From contig NZ_JACSWC010000349.1 of the NCBI RefSeq assembly GCF_016888165.1, positions 1-64,000 on the forward strand: a stretch of 64,000 nt of DNA. The letters are read 5' to 3'. The notes below the pieces were generated by a model, which did not search any database, was not told where the DNA came from, and was given only the letters and a program-made list of their open reading frames with translations. Position numbers and translations under genes: made by a program. Numbering within the stretch: the first letter of the stretch is position 1; every line of letters starts with the position of its first letter. The stretch is from Halomicronema sp. CCY15110. GTDB lineage: Bacteria; Cyanobacteriota; Cyanobacteriia; Phormidesmidales; Phormidesmidaceae. Shown here piece by piece: positions 13,590-46,001 of the stretch.

Positions 13590-13757
13590 GGTGAGTGAGG
13601 ACAAAAGTTTACAGTGGAGAGGAAGCCCAATCGCTGACGCATCGACCATCAATGTCAGTGCTGTATCTCACAGTATAAACATGCCCAAAAACTAGAGATT
13701 GCCTAACAAACCCTAGTTAAAAAAATATTCAATAAAGAACAATAAAGTTCATAGAAA

Positions 13758-14145
13758 TGGAGCCGACGGGAGTCGAACCCGTGTCCGCTTCGAGTAGTAA
13801 CATTCCATTCGTTCACAGACTTAGCCTCTCTAACCCTCAAGGCGGGAACCGCTAATTATCCCTAGCGGTGGGATGCTCTAGTGGGGTCTTAGCCTTAAGT
13901 GCTACCAGAGGAACACTTGAGGAGCATCCGTTGGGGTTAAGTCCGCAATCCTTAACGGAGTCAGATCGCAGACGCTCGCTAACGTGAGTTAGTTTTTAAG
14001 CAGCAACAGGTGCAGCTTTACGAGCAAAAGGAACGATGTTGTTCGCAGTTACGTTTGTTTTGAGCCTGGATTAACGAGAGTAGACTCCCTCTCGGTCTGA
14101 ATCACAGAATGACTTTCGTCAAAACGTCGAAACCGTTACGGCCCC
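13758..14145 (-). ncRNA. ssrA: tmRNA (transfer-messenger RNA)
   Basis: Rescues stalled ribosomes and tags their products for proteolysis. The 5' end reads GGGGCCGTAACGGTTTCGAC, and its first seven bases pair with CGGCTCC at the 3' end, forming the acceptor stem. The TPsiC-like arm GGGTTCGACTCCCGTCGG precedes it. The discriminator A at 13758 is followed by TTT, so CCA is not encoded and must be added. The internal reading frame (13996-14046) encodes ANNIVPFARKAAPVAA followed by TAA, a typical cyanobacterial tag. One-piece, non-permuted form, 388 bases. Confidence 0.97.
13996..14046 (-). other. tmRNA proteolysis-tag reading frame
   Basis: Sixteen codons GCG AAC AAC ... GCT GCT then TAA, read as ANNIVPFARKAAPVAA. 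The hydrophobic ending PVAA is what ClpXP-type proteases recognise in known systems. Confidence 0.95.
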
Positions 14146-39489: not shown

Positions 39490-40596
39490 GTGCCCCAATC
39501 TTTATCCGTCCCTGATTTATCGTTATTTCATGCCTCGACGCAGGTTCCCCAACCGGCGTCGATCAAGCGTTTGGCTAGTGGGGTGGAAGCTTGGAATGAA
39601 TGGCGATCGCGCACGGCTCAGATGCTGGCCGCCCAAGGGGCTCAAGGGGCTCAAGGGCGCATCAATCTGCGTGAAGCCGTGCTGAAAAATGCGCAACTGC
39701 GAGACATCAATCTCTCCAAAGTTGACTGCTGCATGGCCGACTTGCGAAAGGCGGATTTAAGTCACGCCGATCTGCGAGAAACGCTGTTCTATACCGCGAA
39801 TCTGAGCTATGCCAATCTGAGCTATGCCAACCTCAGCGGTGCTGACCTGCGGGAAGCTTCGCTCCACGATGCCAGACTCCAGGGGGCGACGCTGAATTCG
39901 GCGAATCTGACTCATGCTGACCTCACCCGCAGCGTGTTGCGCGAGGCTCAATTTCGTCAAGCTGATTTGCGTCATGCTTCGTTGAACCAAGCCGATGCCT
40001 GTATGGTGCAATTTTCTGAAGCGGATCTGGCCTGGGCTGACCTCAGCAGTGCCGCCCTTTACACGGCTGACTTAAGTCGATGTAACTTATCTAGCGCCAC
40101 CCTCAATCAAGCCGATTTGCGCGAGGCCAACTTTGCCATGGCGACGCTGCAAGATGCCCTGATGCATGAAGTGGACTTGAGGGCCGCCATTTGTAGCGCC
40201 GCCAATATGATTGGAGCCGCCCTGCACGGGGCCAATCTCACCATTGCCAACCTCAGCCTGACCAATCTCTGCATGGCTAACCTGAGTCGCGCCTGTTTGG
40301 AAGGCACCACCTTGATCGGGGCCAATCTGATCGGGGCGAATTTGCACCAGGCCAAGCTGGCTCGGGCCAATTGCGAGAATGCTGACTTACGCGAAGCCAT
40401 CATGCGCAAGGCCGATTTGCAGGGGGCAAATTTTCGGTTTGCCGACCTGAAAATGGCGAACTTATCGGAGACTAACCTCCAAGGGGCCAACCTCACGGGG
40501 GCTGACTTGTCCCAAGCGAACGTTTGGCAAGCCAACCTGAAAGATGCTTGTTTAATCGACGCTGTGATGCCCGATGGCAACCTGTATTCGGCCTAA
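39490..40596 (+). CDS. Pentapeptide-repeat protein
   Basis: 368 residues starting at GTG 39490. The N-terminal WNEWRSRTAQMLAAQG and INLREAVLK segment is typical of cyanobacterial pentapeptide proteins. From about residue 55 to 365 it is built of about 60 A(D/N)LXX pentapeptides forming a right-handed quadrilateral beta-helix. No signal peptide, so probably cytosolic. Functions in the family range from DNA mimicry to unknown. Located 170 bases upstream of the AAA-like/GGDEF gene, with the 5S-like segment between. Confidence 0.93.
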   Translation: MPQSLSVPDLSLFHASTQVPQPASIKRLASGVEAWNEWRSRTAQMLAAQGAQGAQGRINLREAVLKNAQLRDINLSKVDCCMADLRKADLSHADLRETLFYTANLSYANLSYANLSGADLREASLHDARLQGATLNSANLTHADLTRSVLREAQFRQADLRHASLNQADACMVQFSEADLAWADLSSAALYTADLSRCNLSSATLNQADLREANFAMATLQDALMHEVDLRAAICSAANMIGAALHGANLTIANLSLTNLCMANLSRACLEGTTLIGANLIGANLHQAKLARANCENADLREAIMRKADLQGANFRFADLKMANLSETNLQGANLTGADLSQANVWQANLKDACLIDAVMPDGNLYSA

Positions 40597-40765: not shown

Positions 40766-42436
40766 GTGCATATTAGAGTTGAGCACGCACTTGAGTGCGT
40801 AATCGGCTCCCTGTTTGCGGTGAAGCAATCTGTGCATCAACCCATTACTTTTTTGGAAGCAGGTCCCACTGGCCCTTTGGGTATTGACTCTGCCTTTTAT
40901 ATCGAGCGGCCGCCGGTCGAGGCGTTTGCCTATAACGCGATCGCTCGTCCAGGCAGCCTGTTGCGTATCAAAGCGCCCAAGCAAATGGGCAAAAGCTCTT
41001 TGCTGATGCGGGTGATGGAGCAAGCCCAGCAGCAGGGCCATCAAACCTGCAAGATTGACTTTTTGCAAGCGGAAAAGGCTTGTTTTGACAGCTTGGACAC
41101 GCTGCTGCGCTGGTTTTGTCGCTTGACGGCACGCCAACTCGGCCTTGCCCCTGACCTGGATGACTGGTGGGATGAAGCGATTGGCAGCAAGGTGAGCTGC
41201 ACGATCTATTTTGAAAATCACCTGCTGCGACAACTCGACGCACCGTTGGTGTTGGTGATCAACGAAGTCAACCGGGTGTTTGAGTATGAAGAGGTGGCGG
41301 GTGACTTTCTCTCGCTGCTGCGGTTTTGGCATGAGCAAGCCCAGCGATCGCCCCTATGGCAAAACCTGCGGTTGGTCCTGGCCTACTGCACCGAAGTGTA
41401 TGTGCCGCTCAAGTTGGAGCAGTCGCCATTTAACGTCGGCCAGCAGTTAAAGTTGCCCCCGTTCACTACCGTCCAGGTGCAAGAACTGGCCGAGCGTTAT
41501 CAGGTGCCCCAGCAGTTGGGCGAAGCTTATGTGCCATTTACTGATGAGCTGATGGCGCTGGTGGGCGGCCATCCGTATCTGACCCATACCTTACTGGCGC
41601 AACTGCCTGGTACGGCTGAAAACCCGAAAACGCTGTTAGAGCAGGCAATGCAGCCGACAGGAATCTGGGGAGAATACCTGCGGCGCTGTTATGCGTCCAT
41701 CCGGCAGCAACCGGACTTAATTGACGCGCTACAGCAATTAGCCAACGCCCCCAATGGGCTCAAACTGCCACTACATCTGGCTTATCAGCTTGAGAGTGTG
41801 GGCATTATTCAATACAACGGCGATCGCTACCAGGTGTCTTGTGCGTTGTTCCAGCGATATCTGGCTGCCGAGTTGGCCGAGGTGGAGACTGCTGCCCCCG
41901 TTCAACTACACCAAGAAAATCAACGCCTCAAGCAACTGGCAAATACGGATGCGTTGACGCAAATTCCCAATCGCCGCGCCTTTGACCTGCGGCTACAGAT
42001 CGCTTGGCAGCGACTGAGCCAAACGACGGAACCCCTCACCCTGATGATGTGCGACATTGACCATTTCAAAACCTATAACGACACTTATGGGCATCTGGCG
42101 GGCGATCAATGTCTGCGTCAGGTAGCCCACATTCTGCGCACGAACACGAGAACCGCGCCAGATTTTGTCGCCCGCTTTGGAGGCGAAGAGTTTGCCGTTA
42201 TTTTGCCTAATACCGATTTGCTCGCGGCGGAAAAACGGGCCGAAATTCTGCGATCGCAGATCAGCACGCAAACGGCCCGAGGTGACATGCCGCGAGTCAC
42301 CGTCAGTATCGGCGTTGCGGTGGCATTCTCAGCGACTAATCAAACCCCTAACCAGTTCATAGAAGTGGCCGATCGCGTGCTGTACGAGTCCAAGCGGTTA
42401 GGGCGCGATCGCGTCACCGTGATCTCGCTCTTGTAG
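40766..42436 (+). CDS. AAA-like (AAA_35) ATPase fused to GGDEF diguanylate cyclase
   Basis: 556 residues from GTG 40766; a GTG at 40820 is an alternative start. The first 380 residues are the cyanobacterial AAA-like module: Walker A APKQMGKSS at 70-78. Its Walker B reads LVLVINEVN (161-169), with Asn where the paralogue has Asp. From about 390 a GGDEF domain follows with GGEEF at 472-476, DIDHFK near 430, and no Arg at the usual inhibitory-site position (TAPD). It therefore could make cyclic di-GMP without product inhibition, gated by the ATPase module (inference). The next gene starts 10 bases later. Confidence 0.88.
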   Translation: MHIRVEHALECVIGSLFAVKQSVHQPITFLEAGPTGPLGIDSAFYIERPPVEAFAYNAIARPGSLLRIKAPKQMGKSSLLMRVMEQAQQQGHQTCKIDFLQAEKACFDSLDTLLRWFCRLTARQLGLAPDLDDWWDEAIGSKVSCTIYFENHLLRQLDAPLVLVINEVNRVFEYEEVAGDFLSLLRFWHEQAQRSPLWQNLRLVLAYCTEVYVPLKLEQSPFNVGQQLKLPPFTTVQVQELAERYQVPQQLGEAYVPFTDELMALVGGHPYLTHTLLAQLPGTAENPKTLLEQAMQPTGIWGEYLRRCYASIRQQPDLIDALQQLANAPNGLKLPLHLAYQLESVGIIQYNGDRYQVSCALFQRYLAAELAEVETAAPVQLHQENQRLKQLANTDALTQIPNRRAFDLRLQIAWQRLSQTTEPLTLMMCDIDHFKTYNDTYGHLAGDQCLRQVAHILRTNTRTAPDFVARFGGEEFAVILPNTDLLAAEKRAEILRSQISTQTARGDMPRVTVSIGVAVAFSATNQTPNQFIEVADRVLYESKRLGRDRVTVISLL

Positions 42437-42446
42437 TTTTCTGGGG

Positions 42447-45400
42447 ATGGCCGTGGCTTCCTTTGCAACCCAGTTTGCCGAATCGCCCGAGATGCCCTAT
42501 CAGGTGGGGGGCAGTTTGCGACCCGCCCTGCCCAGTTATGTCTCGCGGCAGGCCGATACCCAGTTGACCGCAGCTTTGCAGGCGGCAGAATTTTGCTACG
42601 TGCTCAACAGCCGCCAAATGGGCAAATCTTCGCTACTGGTGCAAACCCTGCGCAAGTTAGAACTTGCGGGTTGTCGGTGTGCCACGGTGGATATTACGAG
42701 TTTGGGCAGCCAAGAGGTGACGGCGGGCCAGTGGTATCGGGGGCTGGTGGCCGACCTTTGGCGCGGCTTAGGGCTCTTTAGTCAGGGACATTACAAAAAA
42801 TGGTGGCAAGATCAGGGTGAGTTGCCCCCGGTGCAAAAGCTCCAGCGCTTTTTTGAGGAAGTCTTGCTGGAACAATATCCCGCAGATGTGTTTGTGATTT
42901 TGATCGACGAAATCGACAACATTTTGGGTTTAGAGTTTTCGCTGGATGATTTCTTTGCGCTGATTCGCTATTGCTACAACCAGCGGGCAGTCAACCCAGC
43001 CTATCGACGCCTCACCTTTGGCATTTTTGGCGTGGCCACCCCCAGTGATTTGATTCGCGATCGCCAGCGCACCCCCTTCAACATTGGTCAGGCCATTTCC
43101 CTCAATGGCTTTCAGAGCCATGAGTGCCAGCCGTTGCTGATTGGGCTAGGCGACACGATCGCCCAAGCCCCCGTCGTTTTAAAGGAAATTCTTTACTGGA
43201 CGGGGGGACAGCCATTTCTCACCCACAAGCTCTGTGCGCTGATTTGGCAACTCGCCCACGGGCAAGGCACGCCAATTCTGGTATCCGCAGGCAAAGAGGC
43301 CGCTTGGGTGAAGCAGTTTGTGCGCGATCGCATTTTGCATCAGTGGGAAGCCCAAGACGAACCGGAACATTTGCGGACGATTCGCGATCGCCTGTTGCGG
43401 CATCCCCAACGCACAGGCCGCCTCTTGGGACTCTATCAGCAGATCCTCCATCAGGGGCAGATTCCTGCCGATGACACCGAGGAGGCGATCGAGCTGCAAC
43501 TCGCCGGGTTAGTGCACAAGGTGGGCAATACCTTGCAAGTCAAAAACCCGATTTATCAGGCGGTGTTTAACGAAAGTTGGACGGCTTATCACCTAGCGCA
43601 TTTGCGCCCTTACTCCCAGGCCTTGACGGCTTGGCTCGGCTCTGACCGCCAGGACCCCTCGCGTTTGTTGCGGGGGCAAGCTCTGCAAGATGCCCAGCAG
43701 TGGTCGCAAGATAAGCGCCTCAGCGACGAAGATTATCAGTTTTTGGCGGAATCGGCGGAGCGCGATCGCCACGAAGTCCAAATGGCGCTGGAAGCTGACC
43801 GGAGTCAGGCGATCGCCGCCCAACTGCACCAGTCACGGCGCAATGTGCGGTTGCAACGGTGGCTATTGGGAGCCATCACTACCGGGTTCTTGCTCTCCAC
43901 AGGGCTCGGGTTTGCCGCTTTTGTCGAGTCACAACGGGCCAGCCAAAATGAACAAATTGCCCGCCAAAGTGAAATCAGAGCCTTGTTGGCGTCCGCCCAA
44001 GGATGGTTTGATTCGCAACAGCGGCTGGATGCGGTGTTGCAGGTGCTACGGGCGCAACGTCAACTCACCGCCCTCAAGCAGCCCGATCCCGAGTTAGCGC
44101 AGGCCATCGATGACACGCTGCACACCATCATCTTGGGCCTGAATGAGCAGAATCGGTTGGCCGGACACGAGGGGGAAGTGCGCGCGGTGGCCTACAGTCC
44201 CCAGGGCGATCGCATCGCGTCGGCCAGCCTCGATGGCACGGTGATACTGTGGACGACTGATGGCACCCGATTGCAAACCTTAAGCAGTAATGACGGAGGG
44301 GTGCGGGCGATCGCCTTTAGCCCCGATGGGCAAGTGTTGGCGGCGGGCAGCCCAGGCACTATTCGGTTGTGGGATGTGCCGACCGGGGAACCGCTCATGG
44401 CCATCCCGGCCCATCAGGGACTGATCACCACCCTCGGGTTTAGTCCCGACGGGTCACAAATTGCTTCTGGCAGCACCGACAAAACGGTTAAGGTCTGGCA
44501 GCGAGATGGCACGCTATTGCATACCCTCACCGGGCATCGCGCCATGGTGCGCGGCTTAGCGTTCAGTCCCGATGGTCAGCAATTGGCCTCTGGCAGCGCC
44601 GATGCCACCATCAAACTTTGGCACCTCGCAGATGGCCGCCTGCGCCAAACCGTGACCGGCCATGCGGCCACCGTGACCGATGTGCAGTTTTCGCTTGATG
44701 GTCAGCGATTGGCCTCTAGCAGTACCGATAAAACTCTAAAACTTTGGAATCTAGCCGGAGAGCTGCTGAACACCTTTGCCGGTCACCAAGCGCCCGTAAC
44801 AGACTTGGACTTTAGCCCGGATGGTCAGCAACTAGTTTCTACTAGCGAAGATAATGAACTGCGGTTTTGGCCGCTCAATGGCGAGCCAGTGCAGACTTAT
44901 CCCGGTATGGTAGAAGCGGGGCGATCGCTGGACTTCAGTCCCGATGGGCAAACCTTGGTATCGTCAGGCCGCATTGATGACCCCGCTCCGATTGTGTGGC
45001 AGCTAGAATCGCCGCTGTACAGCGTGGTGGGCAATCACTCGGCAGCGGTCATTGCGATCGCGGTCAGTCCCGACGGCCAGACTATCGCGTCTGCGGGTAC
45101 CGATGGCCTGGTCAAACTCTGGCAGCCCGACGGCACGCTGCTCAAAACCTTTCCGGGCCATCGCGCCCCCATCATTTATCTTGCCTTTAGTCCCGATGGC
45201 ACCCAATTCGCCACCTCCAGCTTCGACGGCACTGTGCGCCTCTGGCGACCCGACGGCACCCCCATGCGCACCATTACCAGCAATGCTCGCCTTTCTGGGC
45301 GGGTGGCCTTTCATCCCACCGCCCTAGAATTTGCGATCAGTAGCGAGGATCAGGCCGTACGTCGCCTGCAACTGGATGGCACTCAATTATCGGCGATACC

Positions 45401-46001
45401 CACGCAGAGCCGACTCACCAGCAGTGTCGCGTGGCATCCTCAGGGCACGCAGTTAGCCATTGGTGATGGAGAGACAATCCGCTTAATGGCGATGGCGGCA
45501 GGCAGCCTCAGCCTTGATTTGTCAGGCCACGAAAGCCGCATCAACGATCTTGACTTTCGGGCCGATGGTCGCGTTCTCGCCTCCGCTAGTGACGATCGCA
45601 CCGTCCGCCTATGGGATGTCGCCACGGGTGAAACGACGCAGGTGCTCACAGGCCATACCGACCTCATTTGGGATGCGACCTTTGCCCCCGAGTCGTCCCT
45701 CGCAGTGCTCAATGATCTCTACCTAGCGACTGGCAGCGCCGATAACACCATCAAATTGTGGAGCCCTGACGGCACCCTCCACACCACCCTCGATCGCCAC
45801 ACCGCCAAAGTGCTCCGTCTCGCCTTTAGTCCCGATGGGCAATACCTCTTTTCGGCCAGCAACGATAACACCGTCATCCGTTGGGACTTGCCCGCCATCA
45901 TGACCCTCGACCCAGTGGATTATGCCTGTCAATGGGTCGCCGACTATTTGCAAACCAACGCCGACCTCAGTGAAGGCGATCGGCAGCTCTGCGATTTCTA
46001 G
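42447..46001 (+). CDS. AAA-like (AAA_35) ATPase with membrane segment and 14 WD40 repeats
   Basis: 1184 residues. An AAA-like module (about 15-400) carries Walker A RQMGKSS (56-62) and an intact Walker B FVILIDEID (149-157). A helical section and a single membrane segment (about 468-492) follow. From about 570 to the C-terminus there are 14 WD40 units of the GH..VxxxxFSPDGxxLASGSxDxTxxLW type, enough for two seven-bladed propellers. This is a STAND-like design: sensor propeller coupled to an ATPase. Its ATPase domain is paralogous to the preceding protein, and the two genes are 10 bases apart. Confidence 0.92.
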   Translation: MAVASFATQFAESPEMPYQVGGSLRPALPSYVSRQADTQLTAALQAAEFCYVLNSRQMGKSSLLVQTLRKLELAGCRCATVDITSLGSQEVTAGQWYRGLVADLWRGLGLFSQGHYKKWWQDQGELPPVQKLQRFFEEVLLEQYPADVFVILIDEIDNILGLEFSLDDFFALIRYCYNQRAVNPAYRRLTFGIFGVATPSDLIRDRQRTPFNIGQAISLNGFQSHECQPLLIGLGDTIAQAPVVLKEILYWTGGQPFLTHKLCALIWQLAHGQGTPILVSAGKEAAWVKQFVRDRILHQWEAQDEPEHLRTIRDRLLRHPQRTGRLLGLYQQILHQGQIPADDTEEAIELQLAGLVHKVGNTLQVKNPIYQAVFNESWTAYHLAHLRPYSQALTAWLGSDRQDPSRLLRGQALQDAQQWSQDKRLSDEDYQFLAESAERDRHEVQMALEADRSQAIAAQLHQSRRNVRLQRWLLGAITTGFLLSTGLGFAAFVESQRASQNEQIARQSEIRALLASAQGWFDSQQRLDAVLQVLRAQRQLTALKQPDPELAQAIDDTLHTIILGLNEQNRLAGHEGEVRAVAYSPQGDRIASASLDGTVILWTTDGTRLQTLSSNDGGVRAIAFSPDGQVLAAGSPGTIRLWDVPTGEPLMAIPAHQGLITTLGFSPDGSQIASGSTDKTVKVWQRDGTLLHTLTGHRAMVRGLAFSPDGQQLASGSADATIKLWHLADGRLRQTVTGHAATVTDVQFSLDGQRLASSSTDKTLKLWNLAGELLNTFAGHQAPVTDLDFSPDGQQLVSTSEDNELRFWPLNGEPVQTYPGMVEAGRSLDFSPDGQTLVSSGRIDDPAPIVWQLESPLYSVVGNHSAAVIAIAVSPDGQTIASAGTDGLVKLWQPDGTLLKTFPGHRAPIIYLAFSPDGTQFATSSFDGTVRLWRPDGTPMRTITSNARLSGRVAFHPTALEFAISSEDQAVRRLQLDGTQLSAIPTQSRLTSSVAWHPQGTQLAIGDGETIRLMAMAAGSLSLDLSGHESRINDLDFRADGRVLASASDDRTVRLWDVATGETTQVLTGHTDLIWDATFAPESSLAVLNDLYLATGSADNTIKLWSPDGTLHTTLDRHTAKVLRLAFSPDGQYLFSASNDNTVIRWDLPAIMTLDPVDYACQWVADYLQTNADLSEGDRQLCDF

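Follow-up and report, generated by a model that had tools for sequence, protein, structure and literature searches.

Two neighboring genes in a 64,000-nucleotide stretch of DNA from Halomicronema sp. CCY15110 (the window) each encode an ATPase module of the AAA_35 family (PF14516), joined in one protein to a diguanylate cyclase domain and in the other to WD40 repeats. We asked whether these genes, here called A and B, encode two halves of one signaling switch or two proteins that work separately. Gene A (positions 40766 to 42436, plus strand) was recognized by ORF calling, Pfam, and reading of the sequence and encodes 556 aa; its start is uncertain, with GTG 40766, which leaves approximately 33 residues ahead of the AAA_35 domain, and the in-frame GTG 40820 equally possible. 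Gene B (42447 to 46001, plus strand; ORF, Pfam) begins with ATG and encodes 1184 aa. The ORF call leaves a gap of 10 bp between the genes, and together with the Pfam matches and a count of the WD40 blades it confirmed the gene layout given in a preliminary description of this locus, which had reported AAA_35 plus GGDEF next to AAA_35 plus a helix and 14 WD40 repeats. Both A (~411 bits) and B (99.7 bits in a whole-genome profile search) exceed the curated AAA_35 cutoff of 27 bits, and they are the only genes of this genome that do. A third AAA_35-like place in the genome (L003:1501-2115, within a 926-aa frame) is sub-threshold at 24 bits. Also in the window are a gene for a pentapeptide-repeat protein upstream of the pair (39490 to 40596), which likewise lies upstream in the nearest relative (L077), and a tmRNA gene (13755 to 14145, minus strand).

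In protein A, the AAA_35 domain (aa 34 to 367, positions 40865 to 41866; Pfam, 411 bits) contains a Walker A motif, read from the sequence as APKQMGKSS (aa 70 to 78, 40973 to 40999), and has Asn-Glu instead of Asp-Glu at the Walker B position (aa 166 to 167, 41261 to 41266). The C-terminal GGDEF domain (aa 392 to 549, 41939 to 42412; Pfam, 163 bits) matched solved diguanylate cyclases in a PDB sequence search. Its catalytic motif, GGEEF (aa 472 to 476, 42179 to 42193), is intact and the flanking catalytic residues (FKTYND...GHLAGD) are present; given the intact motif, c-di-GMP output by this protein is plausible. The RxxD product-inhibition site is missing, with TAPD preceding the catalytic motif at that position here and in the nearest relative; RxxD is found in many others. 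This site is common in diguanylate cyclases but is not required. Alternatively, the domain might bind GTP or c-di-GMP as a regulatory element and not work as a cyclase, a reading that fits the loss of the GG(D/E)EF motif in several relatives, some of them paired with a B gene (L121, L129, L135, L136, and L138). We regard it as very unlikely, because 20 of 29 readable copies, among them that of the window, retain an intact GGEEF.

Protein B combines an AAA_35 module (aa 16 to 461, 42492 to 43829; detected with a type-B HMM built here) with a predicted membrane helix (approximately aa 473 to 491, 43863 to 43919; hydropathy) and 14 WD40 blades (aa 568 to 1149, 44148 to 45893; Pfam WD40, 407 bits, with blades 10 and 11 weak) that probably form two seven-bladed propellers. 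Sequence motifs are RQMGKSS at Walker A (aa 56 to 62, 42612 to 42632) and DEID at Walker B (aa 154 to 157, 42906 to 42917), and the QMGKSSLL reported earlier as common to both proteins is indeed shared by A and B. The helix has basic residues on its N side and is borderline in the window (Kyte-Doolittle 1.58); it is clear in most relatives. Most type-B proteins have a single hydrophobic helix right after the ATPase with a net positive N flank, and some, such as the PAS-HisKA forms, have no helix there. By the positive-inside rule, the basic N side of the helix would place the C-terminal domain of B outside; the WD40 repeats would then face away from the cytoplasm, beyond the cytoplasmic membrane.

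When compared with profiles built here, AAA_35 falls cleanly into two deeply separated sister types. Full-length type-A domains scored 395 to 535 bits on their own profile and 40 to 100 bits on the type-B profile, whereas type-B domains scored 444 to 743 bits on their own profile and 66 to 106 bits on that of type A. The ATPases of the pair do not fall in unrelated clades, a possibility that the preliminary description had raised: the types are homologous, with a profile-profile probability of 99.7% and 23% identity. Simple tandem duplication was rejected as the origin of the pair, since each of the two belongs to an ancient type of its own. The two halves also look asymmetric, with perfect Walker motifs in B and a degenerate Walker B in A. 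RQMGK[ST]S and the Asp-Glu of Walker B are kept in 51 of 51 type-B sequences, and the Walker A Gly-Lys in 62 of 63 type-A sequences; the Walker B Asp is present in 0 of 29 GGDEF-bearing type-A proteins versus 21 of 34 other type-A proteins, a comparison in which few contrasts are independent.

Protein A was used to search 390 genomes of the class, with only a few hits taken per genome; this gave at least 28 AAA_35-GGDEF loci besides the window, one of which (L125, genome G310) is interrupted by stops. We added one locus from a Spirulinaceae MAG (L004) and two cut or broken copies (L080 and L081), and the stretches studied were 3 to 20 kb long. Directly downstream and on the same strand, a B gene is present at 19 of the 29 readable GGDEF-bearing A genes (28 relatives plus the window), with gaps of -143 to 149 bp, mostly <50 bp; in addition, B adjoins the cut A gene at a contig end in L080, and L081 holds a broken pair. 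The adjacency that the preliminary description had put up for checking holds in many families of the class. Loci L157 to L176 were chosen partly for observed adjacency and are therefore unusable as a pairing rate. A fairer count came from searching for the family in this genome and seven others, which gave 29 A and 28 B matches: 17 of the 29 A genes have a B gene within 1 kb, downstream and on the same strand, where approximately 0.04 would be expected under random placement, and a further 7 have one within 6 kb. AAA_35 was not found in 14 control genomes or in 15 genomes of other phyla; this absence, together with the recurring adjacency, argues that the pair is not a product of chance. Only A and B themselves are conserved across divergent paired loci, with no constant third gene, and other common neighbors occur mainly among close relatives.

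A and B could nevertheless merely share a transcript, or descend from an old tandem duplication, with each protein working alone. Unpaired genes exist, as this explanation allows: 10 of the 29 GGDEF-bearing A genes have no adjoining B. In L131 and L128 a B gene of the matching clade lies a few kb off, and genomes G012, G112, G178, and G386 have B genes elsewhere, often encoding 1170 to 1260 aa. Genomes G362 and G388 have a GGDEF-bearing A gene and no B gene at all, and in both of them the GGDEF motif is altered (GGEEL in L139:8699-10642 and REQF-like in L142:8916-10844). We consider independent function distinctly unlikely, given that the pair recurs in unrelated neighborhoods in a fixed order, that each ancient type scores on its own profile at several times its score on the other, and that the A and B trees are correlated (40 pairs, r 0.63 against a maximum of 0.32 in 2000 permutations, with species phylogeny not corrected for). 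A partnership between A and B is well supported by sequence, and the two ATPases may form a physical, mixed oligomer.

The two types differ in the domains they carry. Accessory domains of type A are GGDEF, caspase-TIR, CHAT, or an N-terminal domain of approximately 100 aa with hints of a helix-turn-helix, whereas those of type B are WD40, CHASE2, trypsin-COP23, TPR, PAS-HisKA, and kinase-like domains. Type A bears the outputs, and in type B sensor-like domains (WD40, CHASE2, TPR, or trypsin) usually come after a membrane helix. The ~100-aa domain is conserved in many type-A proteins (e.g., L144:8745-9104) and looks helix-turn-helix-like by eye; it is mostly lacking from GGDEF-bearing A proteins, and in most A proteins a Pfam search at E<=1 left it without a clear name. 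Partners of GGDEF-bearing A proteins carry WD40 repeats in 18 of 18 readable cases, plus L078, in which WD40 follows a frameshift, compared to 4 of 22 partners of A genes without GGDEF. This association (Fisher p 7e-8) comprises only 1 to 5 independent contrasts and is therefore suggestive. Other combinations include caspase and TIR ahead of the ATPase in a type-A protein paired with a 1744-aa type-B TPR protein (L173:4447-11987) and a CHAT-bearing A paired with a TPR-bearing B (L175). The window pair is one version of a widespread, modular two-gene family.

Structure models of A (pLDDT 52) and of the B ATPase (pLDDT 62) were built from very shallow alignments and are of low confidence; both matched the archaeal ATPases 2qen and 2fna, ORC/Cdc6, and STAND proteins in a fold search, the matches including Apaf-1/CED-4, MalT, a plant NLR, and Avs (Avs4). 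A PDB sequence search found no relative for the AAA_35 part of A or B; the one exception was a marginal match of A to a RecA P-loop. Going by these low-confidence models, the pair may share with STAND NTPases (Apaf-1/CED-4, NLRs, MalT, and Avs) an ORC/Cdc6-like P-loop ATPase, a lid, and a winged helix; it also resembles them in its WD40 or TPR repeats as the probable sensor and in the effector-type TIR, caspase, and CHAT domains of its relatives. A STAND NTPase joins its effector, NTPase, and repeat sensor in a single polypeptide, whereas the pair splits output and repeats over two proteins, with two paralogous ATPases from adjacent genes, a degenerate Walker B on the output subunit, and a GGDEF output. 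The STAND-like character that the preliminary description had proposed gains support from these low-confidence fold matches, and the second messenger it had proposed is plausible given the intact GGEEF.

We consider it somewhat more probable than the reverse (roughly 55%) that A and B together make up a split, membrane-associated, STAND-like switch, with B as the sensor and the ATPase of B in control of the diguanylate cyclase of A. B, whose ATPase active site is intact, would probably cross the membrane once, and its WD40 propellers would detect a ligand or partner, probably beyond the cytoplasmic membrane. A would be a cytoplasmic paralog that should bind nucleotide, has lost the Walker B Asp, and carries the diguanylate cyclase output. 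Sensing by B would change the ATP state of the A-B complex, which may bring two GGDEF domains together and raise c-di-GMP locally. Counting against this reading are the 10 unpaired GGDEF-bearing A genes and the two genomes that have such a gene and no B, the degenerate GGDEF motifs of several relatives, and the B proteins that have no helix behind the ATPase. Control of a cyclase by a separate NTPase has a precedent in the RdcA/RdcB-DgcE system of E. coli, where the NTPase controls the cyclase through direct contact (PMC6510439); unlike the window pair, RdcA is a dynamin-like GTPase and DgcE has no ATPase domain.

The preliminary description had also suggested a defense module. As a defense or programmed-death module, the pair would use B to recognize an invader and the GGDEF domain of A to make a cyclic dinucleotide alarm, like other STAND or cyclic-nucleotide defense systems. 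TIR, caspase, or CHAT replaces GGDEF on other A proteins, Avs4 and NLRs are among the fold-search matches of the low-confidence models, and a predicted viral contig (L177:5476-9056) carries a TIR-AAA_35 protein of type A followed by a type-B AAA_35, flanked by opposite-strand genes of which one is weakly DUF2460 (phage-tail type). No relative turned up when viral contigs were scanned with the B alignment. We nonetheless consider a defense role unlikely for the window pair: its neighbors are housekeeping genes, for which reason a defense island at this locus was rejected, and those of related loci are likewise housekeeping and variable; GGDEF is a routine signaling enzyme; and the pair has no conserved c-di-GMP-gated effector as a neighbor. 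In a PADLOC comparison with known defense families, which bears on membership in the antiviral Avs STANDs, no model matched A, and B matched only HEAT-ARM_XIII, through its WD40 region. CBASS, which joins a CD-NTase to the gene for a nucleotide-gated effector, differs from the pair, which has a GGDEF cyclase, no conserved third gene, and no defense-profile match for A.

Returning to the split switch, the published systems nearest to it in logic have different core proteins (PMC7159879, PMC8195603). These are the iSTAND/VMAP ternary and EACC1/EACC2 two-gene systems, which resemble the pair in having conserved gene neighbors whose effector and sensor domains vary, share CHASE2 or trypsin-like variants and an occasional GGDEF with its family, and, in iSTAND, include an inactive STAND subunit (PMC7159879, PMC8195603). 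The iSTAND/VMAP systems have adjacent MoxR ATPase and vWA genes, neither of which is conserved beside the pair across divergent paired loci, and the constant module of the pair is instead two AAA_35 ATPases, a family unmentioned in the main text of PMC7159879. In one published case, cyanobacterial sigma factors carry AAA_35 as an accessory domain. Searches of the open-access literature for PF14516, AAA_35, and cyanobacterial AAA-like domains found no description of the A-B pair, and subscription journals or supplements may hold one.

Tentatively, and with less confidence than for the window pair itself, we suggest that split STAND-like receptors may form a large and so far undescribed class in cyanobacteria, built on a paralogous AAA_35 pair in fixed order, in which an active membrane subunit bearing swappable sensors on the outside would form an obligate heteromer with a degenerate-ATPase subunit bearing swappable outputs (c-di-GMP, TIR, caspase, CHAT, or DNA-binding). 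If so, a common cyanobacterial protein family of no known function would gain a testable role in transmembrane signaling by an active and a degenerate ATPase, and one chassis would have been rewired between signaling outputs and death-type outputs. A WD40 receptor would also have a direct link to c-di-GMP, a regulator of cyanobacterial attachment and motility. In our samples, AAA_35 exceeded its cutoff in 41 of 117 genomes of the phylum, with the strong matches all in the class of the window, and in 5 of 299 genomes of the phylum of a proteobacterial reference, where all matches were weak.
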